DNA of 41,056 nt from Lachnospiraceae bacterium (GTDB taxonomy: Bacteria; Bacillota; Clostridia; Lachnospirales; Lachnospiraceae), in assembly GCA_029227035.1 (NCBI GenBank), contig JAQXZD010000116.1, forward strand, positions 1 to 41,056, given 5' to 3'. The translations under genes were made by a program, and so were the position numbers. The notes below the pieces were generated by a model, which made no database searches, had not been told where the DNA came from, and saw only the letters and a list, made by a program, of their open reading frames with translations. Shown here piece by piece: positions 4,982 to 15,829 of the stretch; position 1 is the stretch's first letter, and the number at the start of each line of letters is the position of its first letter.

Positions 4982-5335
4982 TCAGAACTCCGAAAACGGC
5001 AATATCTGTCTTATCTTTTCTATGGTAACCGGCTTTACCAGATACCCATCTGTCTTTTCTTCCATAGCCTGCCTGCAGTAAGCATCATCATCTGCCATAT
5101 ATACAAGTCTTGCTCCTGGCTGTACCTCCCGCATTCTCCGCCCAAGCTGAATCCCACTCATATGCAGCATCGGCACTTGTGTAATCAGAACATCCACAGC
5201 GTTATCCTCCAAATACTTCTGTGCTGCCCCCGGCTCCACAAACATGACCGTTTCACAATCGGAAAATACAGCTTTGACACATTTTATTTCATTATGCAAT
5301 GCTTTTTTATCCGGATCTACCACTGCAATCCTCAT
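4982..5335 (-). CDS. Stand-alone pseudo-receiver protein (CheY-like fold without phosphorylation site)
   Basis: The 117 residues cover one receiver fold and nothing else. It aligns without gaps at the key positions with the receiver of the regulator encoded at 8812-9603. There the acidic pair is D7/D8, the phospho-acceptor D53, the switch residue T81 and the lysine K101. Here the same positions are D7, P8, Q53, A81 and K101. The local sequences are DVLITQVPM where DVAFLDVRM is expected, and YMADDDAY where FATGYDEY is expected; DGYLVKPV is kept. It therefore should not accept phosphate from a kinase in the normal way. GGAGGAGG precedes the ATG by 5 nt. Its promoter carries the double heptamer described at 5386-5419. 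Likely a binding partner, decoy or ligand-independent adaptor; function is inferred, not known. Confidence 0.82.
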   Translation of the reverse strand: MRIAVVDPDKKALHNEIKCVKAVFSDCETVMFVEPGAAQKYLEDNAVDVLITQVPMLHMSGIQLGRRMREVQPGARLVYMADDDAYCRQAMEEKTDGYLVKPVTIEKIRQILPFSEF

Positions 5336-5385: not shown

Positions 5386-5419
5386 AGTATAGCAAAGTTA
5401 GTGTACCCAAACTGTACCC
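5386..5419 (-). promoter_or_regulatory. Promoter with SARP-type double heptamer, in front of the pseudo-receiver gene
   Basis: On the minus strand two GGGTACA heptamers (5419-5413 and 5408-5402) are separated by GTTT, giving an 11-bp period. They are followed by 10 nt and a TATACT -10 box (5391-5386). The repeats occupy the place of a -35 box. The gene start lies about 45 nt downstream. The 18-bp core is identical to that at 8773-8790. This spacing is the textbook layout for SARP-family activators, and a SARP-like regulator is encoded 3.4 kb upstream. Confidence 0.75.
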
Positions 5420-5433
5420 CAAATCCACTATTT

Positions 5434-6348
5434 CTATTTTTTATGCACATTTGTCTTTCCTAATATCAATAGTTCTGCAAAAATATTCACAACAATTAAA
5501 AAGACTCCGGTCAACAATGCTGGTGCTATATCTTTCCATGTAACCGTCACTTTCTCTCCATGGATGACCAGATACCAATTCAGGCTGTCCACATACCTCA
5601 TCACCACATACTCCCCATTTTCATTGGTATAAGCATAACCATCCTTTTCTTTGCCATACTGGACGTCATAAAGGTAAGCATTTTCAATATTTACAGAATC
5701 AGTATCAATCTGGACAACACCTTCGGAATTAATGAAGTTAATTTTCACATTGTTCTGATCTTCATAATCTTTAATGATCTGTTGAAGCTTCTCCATGGAT
5801 ACCCCGATGCCGCAGACCCCTAGCAGTTTCTGATTTTCATCCTCTATCCGCGCATTTACAAATACAGTCCAGCAGTTTCCGTTCACTTCATCCGTATCCA
5901 CATCCAGATCATATGCCTTTCTTGAGTTTTTAAAAATGGAATACCAGACATCATGGGCATCCTTCTGTGTGTCAATCACTTTATTTAATCCATCATAGGA
6001 ATAGTATCTTCCTGTCTTTTCAGATACAACAAAGGCTGTCTGTGCCTCAAACACCTCTTTTTGCCTTGACAGATAAACTGCCATTTTATCCACCATTTCC
6101 TGTTCTGTATAGTTGCCTTCGCTTTCCAGCATATCTGTCATAAAGGTATCATTGGCCATCGACAAAGATATGGATATCGGTCTTTGGATTTCACTTTGCA
6201 CCGATTCATATACGCTGGAGGTGATAAGAGCATATTCGTTTTTTCCGCTGCCAAGTTTTCTTTGGGCAGTTTCCGCGATGAATACACCCATAAATATGAT
6301 AATCGAAATGATTGATATCATCATTACCACTAATTTTTTTCTTTTCAT
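5434..6348 (-). CDS. Membrane-anchored Cache-domain sensor protein without output domain
   Basis: The 304-residue protein has a transmembrane helix at about residues 8-26, a large extracellular region of about 240 residues with a double-Cache look (VWYSIF, CWTVFVNARI, LLGVCGIGVSMEKLQQII, followed by a second lobe ending in YVDSLNWYLVIHGEK), a second helix at about 272-295 and only a seven-residue tail (KTNVHKK). Similar N-terminal halves usually head GGDEF cyclases or chemoreceptors; here HAMP, GGDEF and kinase parts are all missing. It starts 18 nt after the diguanylate cyclase stop with a GAGGTAAGAAG ribosome site, so the two are co-expressed. It may supply ligand sensing to the neighbouring cyclase, or be a truncated receptor. 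No frameshifted remainder is visible in the DNA after its stop. Confidence 0.8.
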   Translation of the reverse strand: MKRKKLVVMMISIISIIIFMGVFIAETAQRKLGSGKNEYALITSSVYESVQSEIQRPISISLSMANDTFMTDMLESEGNYTEQEMVDKMAVYLSRQKEVFEAQTAFVVSEKTGRYYSYDGLNKVIDTQKDAHDVWYSIFKNSRKAYDLDVDTDEVNGNCWTVFVNARIEDENQKLLGVCGIGVSMEKLQQIIKDYEDQNNVKINFINSEGVVQIDTDSVNIENAYLYDVQYGKEKDGYAYTNENGEYVVMRYVDSLNWYLVIHGEKVTVTWKDIAPALLTGVFLIVVNIFAELLILGKTNVHKK

Positions 6349-6366
6349 ATTCTTCTTACCTCGGTT

Positions 6367-8673
6367 TCATTCCATTTTTATTTCTACTTTATTCCGGTAC
6401 ATTCTTTCATCCGCCACTTTGAATACTGCATCATAAGTATCCCCGTCCATGCCCAGCTTTGCCATGCCGGAAGCAATACACACCTCCATGATATCGTCTT
6501 TACCGCTTACTGCTTCCATATGATGATGAAAATCCTGCATTTTCCGGTCTATCATATCAAAGTCTGTCCCATCTGCAATTGCCACAAATTCATCTCCGCC
6601 GATTCTGAATACCGAACTGTGTGAGAAAGTCTGACAGATAAATTTTCCTGCTTTTTGGAGCAGTTCATCTCCCTTTTCATGTCCGAGATTGTCATTTACC
6701 TTTTTCAGATTATTGACATCCATCACAACAACCGCCATTTTGCAATCCGCCCATACTTCCTCTCCGATACACTTTTCAATATACATCAAATAGTCATTTC
6801 TGTTCCGCAATCCTGTTAGTCCATCCTTCTCTGCCAGATTCTTCAGTTTTGAAATATATTCTTTGGTTTCGTTTGCCATAATTGTAATGTTATCCGCCAA
6901 TTCTCCAATCTCATCCTCGGCATTGCATGAAACCTTCGCATCCCAGTTACCAACGGCATACTGCTTGGTGGCTTCTATAACTTCAAATAAAGGTTTTACC
7001 ATGTTTCTGCTAAGCCTGAGAGACAAAATCAATGTGATGGCAAACACAATAATGAACACCATAACTCCGATGACAATAATGGAATACAATTGACTATTCA
7101 TGTCTGATGCCTTGGCATAAGTGACAAGCTTCATATGATTTTCCAACGTCGTGAAATAGATACCGTATTTTTCTCCCTTTCTATTGATAAACTGTATCTC
7201 TTCCGACTGCTCCCTGCTTTGCAACTGGGAATAAATATCACTATCAAAAGAATTTCCCAATAAATTTCCTTTCTGATAATGAATTTCACTGTTGCTCATA
7301 CTGCCTAAAGCAACGCCACTGCTTTTATAAATATTTAACTCATCCAAAATTTCTTCAAATTTTGTAAAGTCGATATCCATACCGATGACACCTACAAGGT
7401 CACTGCCATCGTAAACCGGAATGGCATAGGAAACCATTTTCACATTGATATTTGCATTATCATATGGTTCTGTCCAAATTGGCTTTCCTGCCCAGACCGG
7501 AAGGTAATACCAGCCTACATGTTCTGTATCATTTACATCATAAACATTTAAGTCTGTCGGTTTTAATTTTTGAAATCTGCCGTTCTCTCCGGACCTTGTA
7601 CAAAAGAATCCTGAGTTTCCATTGCCCGTAATGTCAGGATTCAGACGATAATACACTGCCACCGCACCATCTGTGTTATATGCAGCAGAAACAGCAATTT
7701 CTGCCATTTGATCCATATACTCGGAAACAATTGTTTCATCTTTCAGTTCCTCTAACGACGGACGGGACTTTTCGGAAATATCATACAAATTATTTACTGT
7801 CAGTTCCACAAGATTTAATTGGTCGTTTAATTTCAAAGCCAGGGAATAACAACTCTCACGCATCATAATTTCAGCATTCTGTGACGATATATTGCCCGAA
7901 ATAAGCAGGGTAATGGAAAGAAGCAATATTGCCAAAGTCAACATACTACCGGAAATAAGATAATTGATTTTATTTTTTATCGAACTTTTTACCAGTTTGA
8001 TCTGTCCGTTTATACTCACAGTCAACATCAGAAATGCAACCACCACAGAGCCTAGAAGTATAAAAAATATTCCATAAAACAGTAACGATGCCAGACTGGC
8101 AAGCACCATGATACAACTATATGCTGTCAGTGCAGTGCACTCCCTTTTTGTTAAACTTTTTCTATGTAAGAAGATTACAATAATATTTGCAAGCAATGAT
8201 GTAACTGCAAGTACACTTGAAAGCCAGAAAAATTCTCCTCTGTGATACATGGAGTCTGCATCAATCACATAAAGCCATCCCGTAAATTGCGAAATAATTA
8301 CAAGTGCTTCTCCCAACAGGGCTATAACAGATGCAACAATATACCAGACACGAAGTTTTTTGTTTTCCCTTCCTCCTAGAACATGAAGAATATAAAGCGA
8401 AAATAAAAAAGAAAGCAAAAATCCGGAAAAAAATTCTCCAAAGTTGGATATCCGCACAAGATGCCATCCAAGAGAACTCGTCATTCCCTTCGTCAAAAGT
8501 CCGGCTATATTGCACAATAAATCGATTAGCAGACATATAAAAATAGAAATAAAGTGTCTGCCTGTATGCTTTTCTATCTTTGATTCAATGAACACTACTG
8601 CAAGGGCAGCTATACATATCAGTACACCCCAGCTTTCCAAAACTATATTGATGTATTTTAGTGTATTCGACAT
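6367..8673 (-). CDS. Diguanylate cyclase with seven-helix sensor, dCache, HAMP and GGDEF domains
   Basis: A 768-residue membrane enzyme predicted to make cyclic di-GMP. Residues 1-225 form a seven-helix membrane sensor, a further helix lies at about 238-260, the extracellular double-Cache region spans about 262-528 (with GWYYLPVWAGKPIWTEPY), a helix lies at 529-553, then HAMP to about 605. The GGDEF domain begins at DGLTGLRNRN (617) and has the intact GGDEF active site at 692-696. The inhibitory RxxD site is absent: Phe and His stand where Arg and Asp are expected before the active site. The first 220 residues match the sensor of the kinase at 9608-10888 (RISNFGEFFSGFLLS against RITNFCEFASGYLVS; IISQFTGWLYVID against ILSQFNGMYYIIN). 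Its own promoter with a double heptamer lies at 8757-8790, and AAGAGG precedes the ATG. Confidence 0.9.
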   Translation of the reverse strand: MSNTLKYINIVLESWGVLICIAALAVVFIESKIEKHTGRHFISIFICLLIDLLCNIAGLLTKGMTSSLGWHLVRISNFGEFFSGFLLSFLFSLYILHVLGGRENKKLRVWYIVASVIALLGEALVIISQFTGWLYVIDADSMYHRGEFFWLSSVLAVTSLLANIIVIFLHRKSLTKRECTALTAYSCIMVLASLASLLFYGIFFILLGSVVVAFLMLTVSINGQIKLVKSSIKNKINYLISGSMLTLAILLLSITLLISGNISSQNAEIMMRESCYSLALKLNDQLNLVELTVNNLYDISEKSRPSLEELKDETIVSEYMDQMAEIAVSAAYNTDGAVAVYYRLNPDITGNGNSGFFCTRSGENGRFQKLKPTDLNVYDVNDTEHVGWYYLPVWAGKPIWTEPYDNANINVKMVSYAIPVYDGSDLVGVIGMDIDFTKFEEILDELNIYKSSGVALGSMSNSEIHYQKGNLLGNSFDSDIYSQLQSREQSEEIQFINRKGEKYGIYFTTLENHMKLVTYAKASDMNSQLYSIIVIGVMVFIIVFAITLILSLRLSRNMVKPLFEVIEATKQYAVGNWDAKVSCNAEDEIGELADNITIMANETKEYISKLKNLAEKDGLTGLRNRNDYLMYIEKCIGEEVWADCKMAVVVMDVNNLKKVNDNLGHEKGDELLQKAGKFICQTFSHSSVFRIGGDEFVAIADGTDFDMIDRKMQDFHHHMEAVSGKDDIMEVCIASGMAKLGMDGDTYDAVFKVADERMYRNKVEIKME

Positions 8674-8756
8674 CTTCAGACCTCTTTCGTTATCCGTACC
8701 TGTTCAGATTCCTCACAAATACTGTGACTCTACATCTTGTTTTCTTAATTGATTTC

Positions 8757-8790
8757 ATTATAGCAGGGCAAATGTACCCAAACTGTACCC
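8757..8790 (-). promoter_or_regulatory. Promoter with SARP-type double heptamer, in front of the diguanylate cyclase gene
   Basis: On the minus strand GGGTACA (8790-8784), GTTT, GGGTACA (8779-8773), then 10 nt and a perfect TATAAT box (8762-8757). The 18-bp core, the 4-bp spacer and the 10-bp distance to the -10 box are the same as at 5386-5419, while flanking bases differ, which argues for a selected site rather than a recent duplication. It lies between the regulator gene (stop at 8812) and the cyclase start (8673), giving a leader of about 75 nt. Confidence 0.78.
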
Positions 8791-8811: not shown

Positions 8812-9603
8812 CTATTGTTTTTGGAATAATATTCCTGCCAATGTAACCTCTCCCCAACTGTAACCGGACATATATTCCCCGCCAAATGCTCGCAGTGCCT
8901 CTGTGCTGCCATCCAGCATCTGCCAGTAATCACAGCTCATTTTCGTCTTGTCCACCGACAAACTCCTGTTTTCTTCCTTGAGGATTTCCTCTATCCCTGC
9001 CCTTTTCAATGAGTTTTTCAGACTGACCTTCGCCTTTCGTACCTGTGCCAGTGAAGAAGCTTCATTGTCACTGTCTTCATACATCGCTGCCGCAATTACA
9101 TTATTGTTCACTGCTGCACCGTTCCTGTCAATCAAAAAGGCAAGTAACTCTTTACATCTTGCATTTTCAAAGGAAACAGAAACGCCCTCTACAAAGAGTT
9201 CAAAATGTCCGAATGTACTTGCATGAATATGTTTTTGCCTTACTGCTACCGGGTTTCGCAGATTTTGCAATTCTTCCCTCACCGCATCACTCTGTACCGG
9301 CTTTAACAGATACCCGGAACAACGCATATTCACAGCAGGCAACAGGTATTCATCGTATCCTGTAGCAAATATGATATTGATTCCCGGCCAGAAATTTTTC
9401 AGGCGGAGTGCAAGCTCCAACCCCGTCATTCCACGCATACGAACATCCAAAAATGCCACGTCAGCTATGTTTTTCTCTGCCCACGCGAGTACTTCCCTGG
9501 GACTTTGAAAGGCAAACAGCTCTGCCTCCGGTGATGCCTCCCTTATGGCATCTGTCAGGGAATCCAGTGCCAGTTTTTCATCATCAACTGCCAATATTCT
9601 CAT
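8812..9603 (-). CDS. Response regulator with SARP/OmpR-like DNA-binding domain
   Basis: The receiver (residues 1-115) has all catalytic positions: D7, D8, D53 in VAFLDVRM, T81 and K101 in GYLLKP. The C-terminal part (about 125-263) begins FGHFELFVEGVSVSF, continues CKELLAFLIDRNGAAV and ends with a helix-rich stretch; this is the winged-helix type found in SARP and related regulators, with only a very short tail instead of a full BTAD domain. It starts 4 nt after the kinase gene, so it is the kinase's cognate partner. I infer that it binds the GGGTACA double heptamers in front of the cyclase and pseudo-receiver genes, because these have the repeat length and spacing SARP proteins use. Not proven by sequence alone. 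Confidence 0.85.
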   Translation of the reverse strand: MRILAVDDEKLALDSLTDAIREASPEAELFAFQSPREVLAWAEKNIADVAFLDVRMRGMTGLELALRLKNFWPGINIIFATGYDEYLLPAVNMRCSGYLLKPVQSDAVREELQNLRNPVAVRQKHIHASTFGHFELFVEGVSVSFENARCKELLAFLIDRNGAAVNNNVIAAAMYEDSDNEASSLAQVRKAKVSLKNSLKRAGIEEILKEENRSLSVDKTKMSCDYWQMLDGSTEALRAFGGEYMSGYSWGEVTLAGILFQKQ

Positions 9604-9607
9604 GTTC

Positions 9608-10888
9608 TCACATCCTTTCCCTGAAGATTGTTACCGTAACCACTGTGCCATGCCCCACTTCGCTTTTTATCTCCAGTTTTCCACCGCACACTGAGGCAAG
9701 CCTTTTTCTGATATTTTCTATTCCTATATGTTCTCCGTTGCCCTTCGTTTCGCCCGATACAAAACCTACCCCGTCGTCAGTGACTGTGACGATATATCGG
9801 TCTTTTTCTTCCCTTGTTGCTATGGTAACCGTTCCGCCATCTTCCTTATCGCCCAGTCCATGCTTCACCGCATTTTCCACAAGTGGCTGAACAGACAGAA
9901 CCGGCAGTAGAAAGTCATCTGCCTGTATATCATATTCCACACAAAGCAGTTCCCCAAACCGCAGTTGTTCCAATGTCAGATAAGCTTCTATGTGCTTTCG
10001 TTCCTCCGAAAAAGCAATCATTCCTTTTCGTTTCAGTGAATTGAGATTGCCACGCAGATAGGTGGAAAAGGAAGCCAATGCCTTCCGTGCCATATTCACA
10101 TCCGTTTTGCAAAGCTGGTCTATGACGGTAAGGGAATTATACAAAAAATGCGGCTGCATCTGGGAAAGCATGATATTTACCTTCATATCCTGCAAATCCT
10201 GTTCTCTTTTATAGTAGTCCTGCGTCTGAACCATATGCATCATCAGAAACATAAATACAAGTACCATGGTATTAAGCAGCAAAATAATATTTACGCCATA
10301 AAACATGATCTGCAACAGCATACCAATTACCGGAATACATAAGTAGCAGATAACCGGAATATACAGTCTTTTATCCAACCTGTCCTTATACCGCACCAGA
10401 ATATAGGCAGATACGATTACCGCAAAAAATGAAAACACCAACGATAACGGATACCAGTTGCCTCTTTGATACAGATTATTTTCATTTATGATATAGTACA
10501 TTCCGTTAAACTGGGAAAGTATCAGCAATCCCATTGCCACAAGAAGTGCAATGCCTATCCTCCTTTTCCATCTCTTAAACTCTTCTTCTTTTTCTACATA
10601 CTGAATCATATACAGGATAAACAGTGCACTAACCAGATACCCACTTGCAAACTCACAGAAATTGGTTATGCGAAGCACCACATATATATGATTTCCTCCA
10701 TTTCCCTTAAAGGTAAGTCCCAAAAGATTCGACACAAGCTGCAGGGTATGGGCTCCAAATACATACAGAGCATACCTCCCGCTTCTTCCCAAGGTCTTTC
10801 CCCAGAAAAATATAATCAAAATACCGATAAGGCTGATAAATATACAGCAAATATCGGTTGTAATGCTAAACACTCTCAAGTAATTCAT
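9608..10888 (-). CDS. LytS-type sensor histidine kinase with seven-helix membrane sensor
   Basis: The 426-residue kinase has seven hydrophobic helices in residues 1-220, then the His_kinase motif QMQPHFLYNSL with the phosphorylated His at about 247, a membrane-proximal dimer helix, and an ATPase domain with N-box (LVENAVKHGLGD), GVGF and GIENIRKRL motifs. The whole sensor is homologous to that of the diguanylate cyclase at 6367-8673. It starts 18 nt after the LuxR-type regulator gene and is followed after 4 nt by its own regulator. The ribosome site is weak (AGGGCAG), which may mean coupling to the upstream gene. The signal is unknown; the sensor has no large extracellular loop, so a membrane-soluble or membrane-state signal is possible. 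Confidence 0.88.
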   Translation of the reverse strand: MNYLRVFSITTDICCIFISLIGILIIFFWGKTLGRSGRYALYVFGAHTLQLVSNLLGLTFKGNGGNHIYVVLRITNFCEFASGYLVSALFILYMIQYVEKEEEFKRWKRRIGIALLVAMGLLILSQFNGMYYIINENNLYQRGNWYPLSLVFSFFAVIVSAYILVRYKDRLDKRLYIPVICYLCIPVIGMLLQIMFYGVNIILLLNTMVLVFMFLMMHMVQTQDYYKREQDLQDMKVNIMLSQMQPHFLYNSLTVIDQLCKTDVNMARKALASFSTYLRGNLNSLKRKGMIAFSEERKHIEAYLTLEQLRFGELLCVEYDIQADDFLLPVLSVQPLVENAVKHGLGDKEDGGTVTIATREEKDRYIVTVTDDGVGFVSGETKGNGEHIGIENIRKRLASVCGGKLEIKSEVGHGTVVTVTIFRERM

Positions 10889-10906: not shown

Positions 10907-11536
10907 TTAACCTTTCCTTCCGGTCAGATAATAGACCGCCAGTGCCGTCCTGTGCGACAGCCCCTCCTTTGCCAGAATGGTGGTAATATAATTTTTTACC
11001 GTTCCCTCACTCAGATACAGCTTCGCCGCAATCTCTTTATTGGAAAGTCCATCGGCAACCGCACGGATAATGTCCATCTCTCTTGCCGTATACCCCTCCT
11101 CGCAAAAAGGCTTCTGCTCCTGCTGTGCACTCGTCAGATGCTCCAGAAAATTTTCCTCCACAACGGCAGTTCCATGGTAAACGGATTTAATCATCTGTTT
11201 CAGGTGCTCCGGGGTGTGATTTTTTATCAGATACCCCTTCGCTCCGCACTTTAGAGCCTGCTGCACCAGCGCATCATCATCAAAAGTTGTAAGAATCAGC
11301 ACCTTGCCAAGCTCATGCTCCACAATATATTTTGTCGCTTCAATGCCATCCATCTCCGGCATCTGAATGTCCATAAGAAATACATCCGGCGGCGTCTTTT
11401 TTGCAAGCTCGATTGCCTTTTTCCCGTTTTCCGCGCAGCCGAGCACCTCAAATTCTTCATCCACGCTCAGAATAATCCGCATTCCGTCTCTGACAAAATC
11501 GCTGTCATCGGCAATTATTACCTTAATTTTCTCCAT
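10907..11536 (-). CDS. LuxR/NarL-type response regulator
   Basis: The 209-residue regulator has a receiver with D10/D11, phospho-acceptor D56 in FLMDIQMPEMDG, T84 and K105, then a LuxR-type helix-turn-helix at about 148-205 (TAREMDIIRAVADGLSNKEI, then SEGTVKNYITTIL). It lies 11 nt after the HisKA_3 kinase gene and is surely its partner; the pair follows an ABC exporter, a common arrangement in which the regulator controls the exporter. A TGAC-N4-GTCA palindrome upstream of the exporter is a candidate target. The next gene, a second kinase, starts only 18 nt further on. Confidence 0.92.
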   Translation of the reverse strand: MEKIKVIIADDSDFVRDGMRIILSVDEEFEVLGCAENGKKAIELAKKTPPDVFLMDIQMPEMDGIEATKYIVEHELGKVLILTTFDDDALVQQALKCGAKGYLIKNHTPEHLKQMIKSVYHGTAVVEENFLEHLTSAQQEQKPFCEEGYTAREMDIIRAVADGLSNKEIAAKLYLSEGTVKNYITTILAKEGLSHRTALAVYYLTGRKG

Positions 11537-11547
11537 ATTCTCTCCCT

Positions 11548-12690
11548 TCAGGAATCTTTAAGCGGCAACAGCATATTGATTGCAAAGCCGGTTTCCGCAT
11601 AAAAATCAATAATTCCGTTCACACTCCGCATGCGTTCCCGCATCCCGGAAAGTCCCATGCCATCCGTGATCTGTGCACAACCCACACCGTTATCCGCAAT
11701 CGAACAGCGCAGCATCCGGTTCATTACAATAATCTTAATCTCAATCTTTGTACAGTTGGCATATTTGAGAGCATTGGATACCGCTTCCACCGCATTGTCC
11801 AGAATAATCTCCAGATACCGGTCCGGCACAACAGACAAATCCCCCTGTGTCTCAAGACCTGCGTCAATCTTCATCTGTCTGCACTTTTCGCAGAGCTTTT
11901 CAAGCTGCAGCAAAGCCAGCTTGTATTTTTGCGGACGCTCTCTTCTTAAAATGAACCGAATCTCATCCATGCCGCTGCGAAGCTCATCTATCACCGCCTG
12001 TATCATTTTCTCTGCGGTATCCGGCTCCTGCTTAAGCACCACCTTCACCGCCTCCAGTTGATAGATGGAACCGTTGATATTGTGCCCAAGCTTATCGTGA
12101 AGCGTCTGGGAAAGCTTTGCCCGCTCTTCCAGCATCTGATTTTCCGCTTCGGCAAGTCCTCTGGACATCTCCCGCTGCAATTCATTCTCCCGAAAAGACA
12201 TTTTCTTTTTTAAAAGCTGCTCCGCATTGATATTATTCTCAATCTGTCTGTGATAGGAATCCACCAGAAAATCATTCTGTATATAAAGCAGTCCCATAAA
12301 CAAAACCGCAAGGCTCTCTCCACCTGACATCCGCAGCATCCCAAGAAAAGGCAGAAAATACCACAAAATTCCCATATTCGGAAAACGAAACTGCCGGCAG
12401 ATGGACAAAAGCTCATACAAAAGCAGGACTCCCAGCAGATATACGGAGCTTCCCAGCTCCCTCACCAGCAGCAAAAAAGTCAAAACGGACAGGCTCCACA
12501 ATATCGCTTTTCCCAGTTTCTCCGCAACGGCCTCCCATGCAAAAAGTCCAAAAAGAATCGCGAAAAGCAGGAACACCTCCACGGATGTCCCTGCCTGTCC
12601 TGTCTGCGTGAGCAGCAGATAAATCTCTCCTGCCAGCATCAGTATCACTTTTACTGCCATAAAATAATGATCCCGAATCTGTTCTGTCAT
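11548..12690 (-). CDS. HisKA_3-type sensor histidine kinase
   Basis: Starting at ATG 12690 (MTEQIRDHYF) the protein has 380 residues: several hydrophobic helices in about 10-140, a coiled linker, the HisKA_3 motif SQTLHDKLGHNINGS with His at about 198, and an ATPase domain with EIILDNAVEAVSNAL, DNGVGC and GLSGMRERM. I prefer 12690 because it gives an ATGA overlap with the permease stop (12687-12690). A longer frame to 12828 would run back through the permease gene. There is no extracellular domain, so it may sense the membrane or the exporter itself, as intramembrane-sensing kinases do. Partner is the LuxR-type regulator that follows. Confidence 0.88.
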   Translation of the reverse strand: MTEQIRDHYFMAVKVILMLAGEIYLLLTQTGQAGTSVEVFLLFAILFGLFAWEAVAEKLGKAILWSLSVLTFLLLVRELGSSVYLLGVLLLYELLSICRQFRFPNMGILWYFLPFLGMLRMSGGESLAVLFMGLLYIQNDFLVDSYHRQIENNINAEQLLKKKMSFRENELQREMSRGLAEAENQMLEERAKLSQTLHDKLGHNINGSIYQLEAVKVVLKQEPDTAEKMIQAVIDELRSGMDEIRFILRRERPQKYKLALLQLEKLCEKCRQMKIDAGLETQGDLSVVPDRYLEIILDNAVEAVSNALKYANCTKIEIKIIVMNRMLRCSIADNGVGCAQITDGMGLSGMRERMRSVNGIIDFYAETGFAINMLLPLKDS

Positions 12691-13946
12691 GCTTCGCTCT
12701 CTTTCATTTTTAATCCGACTGCGCCGATTCCAAGAATGACAATCACATATGCCAGGGTAATCCCACAAATCATCGGATATACCGACTGATCCCCTCTCAT
12801 AATCATCTCCGTTCCCTTGATAAACCAATGCTGAGGCATCAGATCGGATATCGCCTGAATCATCTTCGAGGAACCGTCCAGGGAGAAATAACAGCCCGAC
12901 AGAAGCGCTGACACCACCCAGATTGCAAGTACTGCATAGTTTGCACTCATGACATCTCCCACCATAATTCCCGCAACAAGGCTTAAAATATTGAAAATCA
13001 TACCCAGCAGAAATGCCATAAACAAAAGATTTCCTCTGGAGATTCCAAAGTCCATGTTCCGAAACAGCAGCATGTACAGTGCCATAACCCCTGTCTGCAG
13101 AACAGATACCAGTATTGCCACCGCAAACTTGGATATCAGGTACTCGGTTCTTCCTACCTTTGACAACATGATTCTAGTATACACCTTATTGTCTCTTTCT
13201 TCAATCATGGTGTAAGCCACACATACCCCGCAGAACAGGAATCCCAGCGAAAGAATTGCATATGCCATGCCGGCAAGCTGCTTTTTGTTTTCCTGCTCTC
13301 TGGTCAGACTCTCTTCCTTGCTGCTCTCCAGCATGACAACCTCTTTTTCCGGGAAATTTTCTTTCATCTGCCGGATAGAGGAAACCATCTGCTTCGGTTC
13401 CTGTCCGCTTTGCGCCAGCCTTTGAATAACGGAAATCTCCTCGGTAAGAACCCTTTCTGCCAGTTCAAAACGCTCGTCATCCGAGGTCTCATAAAGCCGG
13501 AAAGCCTCTTTCCAATCTCCCTCCGTGACCTTCTCGTCAAATTCCGGTCGCAGATATAAGGAAGCCCCTACCCGGTCCTTTGTAGCATCCTCCTTCACGA
13601 TTTCTTCCACATCCGCTTCGCTCATTTCGGATGCATCCACACGAAATACCCGGATCATTCCGGCCTCGGCCAGTTCCTGCTGCACATATTCCGCCAGTTC
13701 TGACTGCGCGGCATCATAAACCTTTACGGCATAAGAAGTCCAGTCATTCTGATATACAATTTTTTCCTGCGGCTTTTCGAGTTCGATAATTCCACGTTCT
13801 CCCTCATCGTAAGAGGTTGACGCATCGTTTTTCAGGTTCAGGATAACCAGTGACAATAACGGCGCCAGCAGGAGAAAGAACAGAAATCCTCTGTTGCGAA
13901 CCAAAAGCTTTAGATTGATTTTTAACAGTTCCATAAAATGATTCAT
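12687..13946 (-). CDS. ABC-2 type exporter permease (second)
   Basis: A 419-residue protein with one N-terminal helix (about 18-38), an extracellular domain of about 190 residues rich in charged residues, and five to six helices from about 225 to the end, as in ABC-2 export permeases (NatB/YhaP type). It overlaps the first permease by 4 bp (13943-13946) and the kinase by 4 bp, so four genes are translationally linked. With the other permease it should form the membrane channel of an exporter powered by the ATPase at 15062. The substrate cannot be read from sequence; drugs, peptides or sodium are typical for the group. Confidence 0.87.
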   Translation of the reverse strand: MNHFMELLKINLKLLVRNRGFLFFLLLAPLLSLVILNLKNDASTSYDEGERGIIELEKPQEKIVYQNDWTSYAVKVYDAAQSELAEYVQQELAEAGMIRVFRVDASEMSEADVEEIVKEDATKDRVGASLYLRPEFDEKVTEGDWKEAFRLYETSDDERFELAERVLTEEISVIQRLAQSGQEPKQMVSSIRQMKENFPEKEVVMLESSKEESLTREQENKKQLAGMAYAILSLGFLFCGVCVAYTMIEERDNKVYTRIMLSKVGRTEYLISKFAVAILVSVLQTGVMALYMLLFRNMDFGISRGNLLFMAFLLGMIFNILSLVAGIMVGDVMSANYAVLAIWVVSALLSGCYFSLDGSSKMIQAISDLMPQHWFIKGTEMIMRGDQSVYPMICGITLAYVIVILGIGAVGLKMKESEA

Positions 13947-15031
13947 GACTTACTCCTCCTTCTGAGCTTGTTGATGCCGATTGCAAGGACACTTCCCACC
14001 ACGGTAATCACTGTCATATACAACAGACATCTTCCTGTATAATCACTCTTTCCCATGCAGGAATACTCCACCAGTGTGCGGTTGACATAATATATGGGTG
14101 AAATCTCCTTAATTTTTTCCGGTATGTTGGAAAACAGATAGGTTTCAAACGAACCTCCGATAAATCCCATTCCCCATACAAAGGAAAAAAGTACGATAAT
14201 CAATACGGCAAAATTATTGACGATGGCATACAAAAGCATTCCCACAGAGATTGCTGCCATGATGCAGGCAAGAATCACCACGATACTCATGGGATTGGTT
14301 CCCCAGGACACTCCAAACAGGAGAATGGATAACCCAACTGTTACCGCTGTTGTGACAATGACTATCAGCACTGCCGGAACCCATCTTGCCAAATACAGCT
14401 TCGTCTCTGCGATACCGGATACCCGAAACCGCTCTTCGATTCCATTCTTCTTCTCCGCCGTCAGAATTCCCGCCGTACAGAGAACTCCCAGCCATGCGAA
14501 GTAAATCGCCTCAATGATTCCATAATAATCTTTGGAATCAACGGCCGGCATATACTCCGTCTCCTGTACCGGAAGCGTAATCTCATCATTTTCTCCCGGA
14601 ATCATGGCACGAACCGCTTCACCAAAGCTCTGCCTGTCCACCTGTCCCATAAAATACTCCAGGATTCCGCCCTGTATCTCATAATCATCACTCCGATACA
14701 AGGTGTATTCGTCTTTTCCGATATCAATGAAGCCCTTCAGGTCATTCTGCTCCATAATTTCCTGCGGTTCCCCCTCCGGAAAATTTTCCAGTTGAATTCC
14801 GGCTTCCTCTCCCGCATCCTTGATTTCGTCCATATACGCAGCATAGCTGCTCTCACTGCTGATGCGGTAACCTGCCCGAAACTCATCCGCCTCCTCATAG
14901 GACTCCATCATATTCGCAAAGGCACTTGAAAGAACGGCAATCACAAGAATCGGTCCTACCAGCATCAGGGCAAGCACCCACTTGTCCCGAAACATCAGCT
15001 TAAAATTATTCTTAATCAGATATCGAATCAT
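13943..15031 (-). CDS. ABC-2 type exporter permease (first)
   Basis: A 362-residue permease with an N-terminal helix near residues 18-40, a soluble extracellular portion to about 165, and a C-terminal block of helices from about 170 to 355 containing AEKKNGIEERFRVSG, the cytoplasmic coupling segment typical of ABC-2 proteins. It starts 30 nt after the ATPase gene and overlaps the second permease by an ATGA. The two permeases share topology but not close sequence, so the exporter is predicted to be a heterodimer. Confidence 0.87.
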   Translation of the reverse strand: MIRYLIKNNFKLMFRDKWVLALMLVGPILVIAVLSSAFANMMESYEEADEFRAGYRISSESSYAAYMDEIKDAGEEAGIQLENFPEGEPQEIMEQNDLKGFIDIGKDEYTLYRSDDYEIQGGILEYFMGQVDRQSFGEAVRAMIPGENDEITLPVQETEYMPAVDSKDYYGIIEAIYFAWLGVLCTAGILTAEKKNGIEERFRVSGIAETKLYLARWVPAVLIVIVTTAVTVGLSILLFGVSWGTNPMSIVVILACIMAAISVGMLLYAIVNNFAVLIIVLFSFVWGMGFIGGSFETYLFSNIPEKIKEISPIYYVNRTLVEYSCMGKSDYTGRCLLYMTVITVVGSVLAIGINKLRRRSKS

Positions 15032-15061
15032 CTTCTGTTCCTCCCTTTTCCACTGCCTGTT

Positions 15062-15829
15062 CTATTCCGCATAATCTCTCAATTTCTTTCCGGTCAGTGT
15101 GAGGAATACTTCCTCCAGTGTAATGTCCTGCTCCTGATTTTCTCCTGCAACCATCTGCTTTAATTCCCTGCTGGTTCCGCAGGCAATCATCTTGCCGTTA
15201 TCCATGATGGCAATCCGGCTGCAGACAGCCTCGACTTCCTCCATGTAATGACTGGTATAGATAACGGTTGCACCGTTTCTGTTGGATTCCTTGATTTTCT
15301 CCAATATAAAATTTCTGGACTGCGGATCGATTCCCACCGTCGGCTCATCAAATATGAGCAGATCCGGCTGATGACCAATGGCACAGGCAATATTGAGTCT
15401 GCGCTTCATTCCGCCGGAGAAATTTTTTGCATATTCGTTTCTCCGTTCCTGAAGTCCCACATATTCCAGGGAATTCTCCACCGTCTGCTTTAATTTTTCT
15501 CCGCGAATGCCGTACAGTGATGCAAAAAGCTCCACATTTTCCCACGCTTTGAGCTTTCCGTGTATCGCAAGCTCCTGCGGAATATATCCGATTCGCGGAA
15601 TCACTTCACTTCGATATTTCTTTGCATCTTTTCCAAACAGTTCAATCTGTCCTGCCGTAGGTTTTTTAATGGAGCAGACCATATTCATGGTCGTGCTTTT
15701 TCCTGCCCCGTTCGGTCCTAAAAGACCAAAGATTTCTCCCTTTCGGATTTCAAGATTCAGATTATCCACAACTGTCTGGTTTCCATACTTTTTTGTCAGG
15801 TTCTTTGCCCTGAGTATCACTTCTTCCAT
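15062..15829 (-). CDS. ABC exporter ATP-binding protein
   Basis: A 255-residue ATPase with Walker A GPNGAGKST (about residues 38-46), Q-loop in IPQELAIHG, signature FSGGMKRRLN (about 137-146), Walker B LLIFDEP (157-163) and the switch His in YTSHYMEEVEAV. This is the DrrA/NatA-like subfamily that works with ABC-2 permeases. It is the first gene of a five-gene unit: ATPase, two permeases, kinase, regulator. The upstream 150 bp hold a palindrome (15931-15942) and the pyrD terminator. Confidence 0.94.
   Translation of the reverse strand: MEEVILRAKNLTKKYGNQTVVDNLNLEIRKGEIFGLLGPNGAGKSTTMNMVCSIKKPTAGQIELFGKDAKKYRSEVIPRIGYIPQELAIHGKLKAWENVELFASLYGIRGEKLKQTVENSLEYVGLQERRNEYAKNFSGGMKRRLNIACAIGHQPDLLIFDEPTVGIDPQSRNFILEKIKESNRNGATVIYTSHYMEEVEAVCSRIAIMDNGKMIACGTSRELKQMVAGENQEQDITLEEVFLTLTGKKLRDYAE

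Follow-up and report, generated by a model that had tools for sequence, protein, structure and literature searches.

The pho box of Escherichia coli lies at a distance of 10 bp from the -10 box. In the accessible portion of the source describing it (PMC4971064), this box usually takes the place of the -35 region, and the system pairs a receiver (REC) and winged-helix protein, PhoB, with two 7-bp direct repeats and a 4-bp A/T-rich stretch. The SARPs (AfsR, ActII-ORF4, and EmbR) carry a DNA-binding domain of the OmpR type, and the partial texts of PMC10936776 and PMC10972967 describe heptamer repeats of an 11-bp period over the -35 region; in SARP promoters the distance between the 3' repeat and the -10 element is 8 bp (PMC10936776). 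A kinase, a response regulator, and an atypical-receiver protein whose gene that regulator controls make up CmrRST of Clostridioides difficile (PMC12548384, in part), and the BldM/WhiI heterodimer is an example of atypical receivers that pair (PMC12632262, in part).

The locus described here shares features with each of these systems. It lies in a window of 41,056 nucleotides (the whole stretch of DNA that was analyzed) from a Lachnospiraceae bacterium. Its response regulator, with a receiver and a predicted winged helix, and its direct repeats resemble those of the PhoB system, and by analogy the regulator would be expected to act in the manner of PhoB at the pho box. In contrast to PhoB, the heptamer varies between regulators instead of being fixed, the kinase is a 7TM protein of the His_kinase type (PF06580), the regulator has an extra helical tail, and the targets would be a diguanylate cyclase and a pseudo-receiver. 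The period and position of the heptamers, along with weak AfsR matches, resemble the SARPs, whereas the regulator has a receiver and no BTAD that was found, the repeat is 10 nt instead of 8 bp from the -10 box, and the setting is a signalling cassette instead of an antibiotic cluster. Unlike CmrT, which is itself an OmpR-family regulator, the atypical proteins here are small receiver-only proteins, and the operators are direct repeats while CmrR binds an inverted repeat (PMC12548384, in part). Similarly, both partners of BldM/WhiI are gene regulators in the available part of PMC12632262, in contrast to the pseudo-receiver at 4982-5335, which is without an output domain. A literature search of limited range found no published account of this arrangement.

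Gene and promoter organization of the cassette

The cassette genes are all on the minus strand, in the order of kinase, regulator, operator 1, cyclase, Cache protein, operator 2, and pseudo-receiver:

9608..10888, minus strand: sensor histidine kinase with a 7TM sensor (PF16927, PF06580, PF02518), separated by 4 nt from the gene for the regulator
8812..9603, minus strand: response regulator with REC, an OmpR/SARP-type winged helix, and a short helical tail; proposed operator-binding activator
8773..8790, minus strand: putative operator 1, heptamers at 8784-8790 and 8773-8779, spacer GTTT, 22 nt past the regulator stop
8757..8762, minus strand: -10 box TATAAT, 10 nt past operator 1
6367..8673, minus strand: presumed target 1, diguanylate cyclase with an N-terminal membrane part, a Cache-type (PDC) sensor, HAMP, and GGDEF
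5434..6348, minus strand: second gene of presumed target 1, Cache sensor protein in which no output domain was recognised
5402..5419, minus strand: putative operator 2, heptamers at 5413-5419 and 5402-5408, spacer GTTT
5386..5391, minus strand: -10 box TATACT, 10 nt past operator 2
4982..5335, minus strand: presumed target 2, stand-alone pseudo-receiver (P replaces D8, Q replaces D53, and A replaces T81; D7 and K101 are retained)

The sequence GGGTACAGTTTGGGTACA is present in two minus-strand copies, at 5402-5419 and 8773-8790, each reading GGGTACA-GTTT-GGGTACA followed by 10 nt and a -10 box. The sequence-only reading had reported this 18-mer at the same two places, with unlike flanking bases and a -10 box exactly 10 nt from each copy, and all of these were exact. 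It had also claimed that the heptamer repeats replace the -35 box. A sigma-70 scan requiring a -35 hexamer listed neither operator-linked promoter of the window, and the comparison with relatives presented below agrees. Where the -35 region would be, both operators have a 7+4+7 direct-repeat box, as expected of OmpR/PhoB sites, and these are heptamer repeats with the 11-bp period over the -35 region that is expected of SARP sites. The heptamer GGGTACA itself occurs seven times in the window against 2.17 expected, a count reached in none of 100 shuffles.

The kinase, which is presumably of the LytS type, has a 7TM part related to the membrane part of the cyclase (28% identity over 216 residues, E 1e-27), and because of this relatedness the kinase and its presumed target cyclase may sense the same kind of signal. 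The Cache protein at 5434-6348 matches dCache_1 at 33.8 bits, under the cut-off of 45, and matches SiaA partially. Among 120 related loci of unequal length, a related kinase was found in 96, of which 29 have the 7TM part, while a GGDEF gene was found in 16 and a Cache match in 10. None of the GGDEF proteins in these loci matched the 7TM part at E 1e-6, so the fusion of 7TM part and cyclase appears peculiar to the window within this sample. One of the loci, L102, has a kinase, a regulator, a pseudo-receiver, and a Cache-GGDEF gene together on one strand, a gene set much like that of the window. Directly upstream of the kinase gene of the window, 10907-15829 encodes another two-component pair, whose regulator is of the LuxR type, together with genes that have the appearance of an ABC transporter.

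Classification of the regulator

The receiver of the window regulator was identified by PF00072 (E 1.4e-17), and its active site is intact, with D7, D8, D53, T81, and K101 present. In the output domain, the predicted order of strands and helices fits a winged helix. The Pfam family Trans_reg_C was absent from the matches of the window protein, and it was weak in 15 of 21 homologues and in 10 of 14 output domains. At E up to 10, the 14 output domains together matched 17 Pfam families, none of them a BTAD family, in a search in which the HMMER filters drop most very weak matches, and the tail of the regulator extends only about 40 residues past the wing. Among solved relatives, the output domain was matched best, though weakly, by a response regulator (1p2f, E 0.0047) and by AfsR (E 0.033), and EmbR was matched weakly at profile positions 5-119 (E 0.12). 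When the whole predicted model was compared with solved structures, receiver domains filled the list, and CosR alone spanned both domains, at a high rmsd.

The label SARP-like was thus apt with respect to the OmpR/SARP-like output domain, but not with respect to the BTAD, which was not recognisable, or to the distance between operator and -10 box, which is 10 nt instead of 8 bp at both window sites and at the peak of the family. The domain composition, with an OmpR-like winged helix, one receiver, and no BTAD found, suggests a placement between the OmpR and SARP types. Homologues were widespread: at E up to 1e-40, the regulator family was found in 125 of 397 family genomes.

Period-11 repeats adjacent to homologous regulators

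A first set of 120 neighbourhoods of homologous regulators was collected from related genomes, which together with the window included 123 REC-winged-helix regulators. An open scan of repeat period against -10 distance gave the strongest excess at period 11 and distances of 8 to 11, with 13, 19, 14, and 12 placings versus 7, 7, 7, and 5 in the reversed control. The excess was limited to this corner, as the grid totals were near equal (286 versus 271 in the reversed control). Exact heptamer repeats of period 11 were present within 220 nt past the regulator stop for 30 of the 123 regulators, whereas the other periods (8 to 40, minus 22 and 33) averaged 2.1 and reached at most five, and only one regulator had such a repeat inside its gene. 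When a -10 box was also required (threshold 12), 31 of 123 regulators had a downstream site versus 12 of 486 control genes from the same loci (Fisher p 2e-14, with genes that are not independent). With the -10 distance left free, 10 nt accounted for 16 of 34 placings of repeat and -10 box, and every other distance for at most three.

The common form of the operator, as read by eye, is TGTnnCn-nTTT-TGTnnCn-N10-TATAAT, and the window heptamer begins with GG in place of the usual TG. Within a site, the two heptamer copies agree, as the scan demands, while the heptamers vary between regulators. For about two thirds of the regulators no clear site was found within 220 nt, and 37 of 123 had one downstream at the loosest threshold. 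In a second set of 40 loci, some of them with near relatives of the first-set regulators, the regulator was found in 39, of which nine had period-11 repeats downstream; the other periods had a mean of 1.03 and a maximum of three. Loci L038-L066 (26 matches in 80,531 bases) had served as an earlier control, which was unfair, having been chosen for holding the perfect repeat, and was replaced. Judged by these comparisons, the arrangement in the window is one case of a family-wide arrangement.

Repeats upstream of the regulator were less common. A period-11 repeat was found there for 7 of 122 regulators, not much more than for the other periods (mean 1.7, maximum nine), and with a -10 box required, in 7 of 123 regulators versus 7 of 440 control genes (p 0.018). 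Because of this latter difference, some family members may autoregulate. The autoregulated circuit proposed for the window itself was not supported, as no site lies ahead of the kinase and regulator genes and the genome (85.6% complete) has only the two sites.

Distribution of the GGGTACA pair among genomes

Searches of the source genome and of related genomes had been proposed as checks of the sequence-only reading. In the source genome (2.40 Mb, 85.6% complete), the exact pair GGGTACA-N4-GGGTACA occurred only at the two window sites, in agreement with a local function. With up to two mismatches, seven places were found in all versus nine for the reversed-pattern control, and the five weaker matches are hence regarded as background.

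The outcome in other genomes was mixed. Sites were found, 31 in 28 of the 397 genomes searched (three in the reversed control), and 29 of these non-window sites were read, as two had no locus assigned. The spacer was nTTT in 19 of the 29, but 16 of these 19 run into a dispersed repeat with a common palindrome and not into a promoter of the window kind. This repeat, found in L038, L043, L059, L062, and others, starts with GGGTACA-nTTT-GGGTACA and continues with a CAGC-TTTGAA-like sequence and then a GTATCAAA-TGATAC-like palindrome. Since most nTTT sites sit in it, the bare motif elsewhere is not proof of a circuit of the window type, and exact-motif counts over the 397 genomes were dropped as a measure of conservation. 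A search of genome contigs found no close orthologue, the best family matches having an identity of about 45%, so that the window sites themselves are without conservation evidence.

Correspondence between the recognition helix and the heptamer

The relation between regulator residues and heptamer bases was analyzed in 37 of 42 rows, after removal of a duplicate of L108 and of sites with scores below 23. In this first set, with the window among the cases for both basic residues, base 6 was C in 12 of 14 cases with Arg189 and G in four of four with Asp189, and Lys/Arg192 occurred with A5 in seven of nine. The window regulator, with Arg189, Lys192, and the heptamer GGGTACA, fits both Arg189-C6 and Lys/Arg192-A5. 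The four strongest associations among the 37 regulators were 233 with base 5, 189 with base 6, 192 with base 5, and 192 with base 4, the strongest single one being that of tail position 233, outside the helix. Heptamer similarity was correlated with the helix when the rest of the protein was allowed for (partial r 0.279, p 0.0005), and weakly with the remaining protein once the helix was controlled for (r 0.14, p 0.029). Additionally, residues 223-243 correlated with the whole heptamer better than the recognition helix did. Shared ancestry therefore plays a part, since protein outside the helix also correlates with the heptamer.

In the second set, Arg189 occurred with C6 in eight of eight sites at a score of at least 21, a cut-off looser than the first-set 23 and picked after the list was seen; the counts were four of four at 23 and eight of 11 over all 27 candidates listed. 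Lys/Arg192 occurred with A5 in two of three. A further rule, I/V192 with G5, failed in the second set (two of six) and was rejected. A weak AfsR alignment places residues 189 and 192 in the DNA-contacting helix of AfsR, the residue match being our own reading, and residues of this helix contact DNA in the AfsR-DNA complex according to the available part of PMC10936776. Taken together, the correlations suggest that the heptamer is read by recognition helix alpha3 through residues 189 and 192 (window numbering), and that the sequence tags are partly predictable from the regulator protein.

Degenerate receivers near the regulators

The gene at 4982-5335 matches PF00072 (E 6e-11), yet it lacks D8, D53, and T81, residues needed for phosphotransfer. 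Including this one, 11 small receiver-only genes were found near regulators of the family. At least one of D7, D8, and D53 is missing in all 11, and D53 itself in eight, while each of these residues is kept in 121 of the 123 regulators. A clear operator (score of at least 22) lies directly upstream of six of the 11 receiver-only genes. Inspection added two more, in L142, where the start was called too early, and in L154 (the same as L224), where the -10 box is weak, giving eight of 11; no operator was seen upstream of the remaining three, in L067, L074, and L102.

The alpha4-beta5-alpha5 region is the usual dimer face of receivers. The receiver-only proteins are most like their own regulators in this region (38% versus 23-31% elsewhere), and because the likeness peaks there, the pseudo-receiver may pair with the regulator. 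The recurrence of a degenerate receiver behind these operators suggests possible built-in feedback, in which the pseudo-receiver would act on the regulator.

Proposed circuit and alternative explanations

The sequence shows directly where the sites lie and how they are spaced, that they have diversified, and that helix residues correlate with bases. The circuit that would join these observations would begin with phosphorylation of the REC-winged-helix regulator (8812-9603) by the membrane kinase (9608-10888). Two regulator molecules would then sit side by side on the heptamers, which are spaced by one helical turn (11 bp), and would stand in for the missing -35 contact of RNA polymerase, like PhoB at the pho box. 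Two promoters would thereby be switched on, one serving the genes for the diguanylate cyclase and the Cache protein and the other serving the pseudo-receiver gene, in a circuit that appears local, as the tag of the regulator was found only in this cassette (genome 85.6% complete). The heptamer, which differs among family members, would be read by alpha3 (189, 192). A probability of roughly 85% is assigned to this reading, from kinase and regulator to heptamer pairs that replace the -35 box at two local promoters and are read by alpha3. The comparison with relatives supports the earlier proposal on the targets: the regulator at 8812-9603 very probably activates the pseudo-receiver gene and the operon of cyclase and Cache genes.

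A protein bound at the operator, which overlaps the -35 region, could also be an obstacle, and the regulator might instead be a repressor that blocks the polymerase at both promoters. This is unlikely, as a -35 hexamer was listed for neither promoter and a 7+4+7 box in the -35 place is the arrangement of the pho box, an activator site in the accessible portion of PMC4971064. It is quite unlikely, too, that another regulator of the cell binds the repeats and that their nearness to this one is incidental. An adjacent response regulator gene does exist (the LuxR-type gene at 10907-11536), a regulator encoded elsewhere could also serve, and the genome has 27 receiver profile matches, only one of full length; however, period-11 repeats recur beside this family in many genomes and far less beside control genes, and the repeat sequence tracks the recognition helix of the REC-winged-helix regulator. 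Finally, the longer palindrome-bearing repeat shared by 16 of the 19 nTTT sites raises the prospect that the window copies are remnants of a dispersed GGGTACA-nTTT-GGGTACA repeat with an accidental fit to promoters. The window copies show none of the further sequence of that repeat, each is followed 10 nt on by a -10 box, and operator 1 is placed just behind the regulator gene like the operators of relatives, which makes such an origin highly improbable.

Beyond activation by the regulator at the two promoters, a broader interpretation is tentative and has somewhat less than an even chance: a large family of self-addressed two-component circuits, in which a tag beside the regulator gene would diversify with one or two helix residues and keep parallel circuits apart, and in which the operator would often drive a stand-alone pseudo-receiver that pairs with the receiver face of the regulator and feeds back. 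The analysis offers a sequence-only route to the binding site, and hence to part of the regulon, for a widespread regulator family, as well as a simple, testable residue-to-base rule for a winged-helix activator, and it provides pseudo-receivers linked to a defined regulator and promoter.

Additional operator copies and downstream genes

Three heptamer patterns were searched in 37 genomes with regulators. Most of these genomes were picked since a site near the regulator was known, so at least one match per chosen genome is expected by construction. The first pattern was found at 36 places in six of the genomes, the second at 39 in eight, and the third at seven in four, with zero in all reversed controls, and the informative part consists of the extra copies (for example, six in G056 and 14 in G211) and the fact that none were found elsewhere. 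The genomes with the first pattern included G063, G088, and G296, those with the second G279, and those with the third G439, none of which had been foreseen from the regulator-side operators that were read. Among 58 listed placings, some overlapping or repeated, in 47 loci fetched from the 82 places, the best -10 box (four of six or better) was at 10 nt in 34, at another distance in 15, and absent in nine.

The first genes behind the sites numbered 26 among those listed, the window's included, and seven, chosen by size, were scanned. Five of them gave matches to InlB-type repeats or to bacterial Ig-like domains, and two gave none. In L078, L106, L118, L145, and L182, the first gene behind the operator encodes a large protein with repeats or domains of these kinds.
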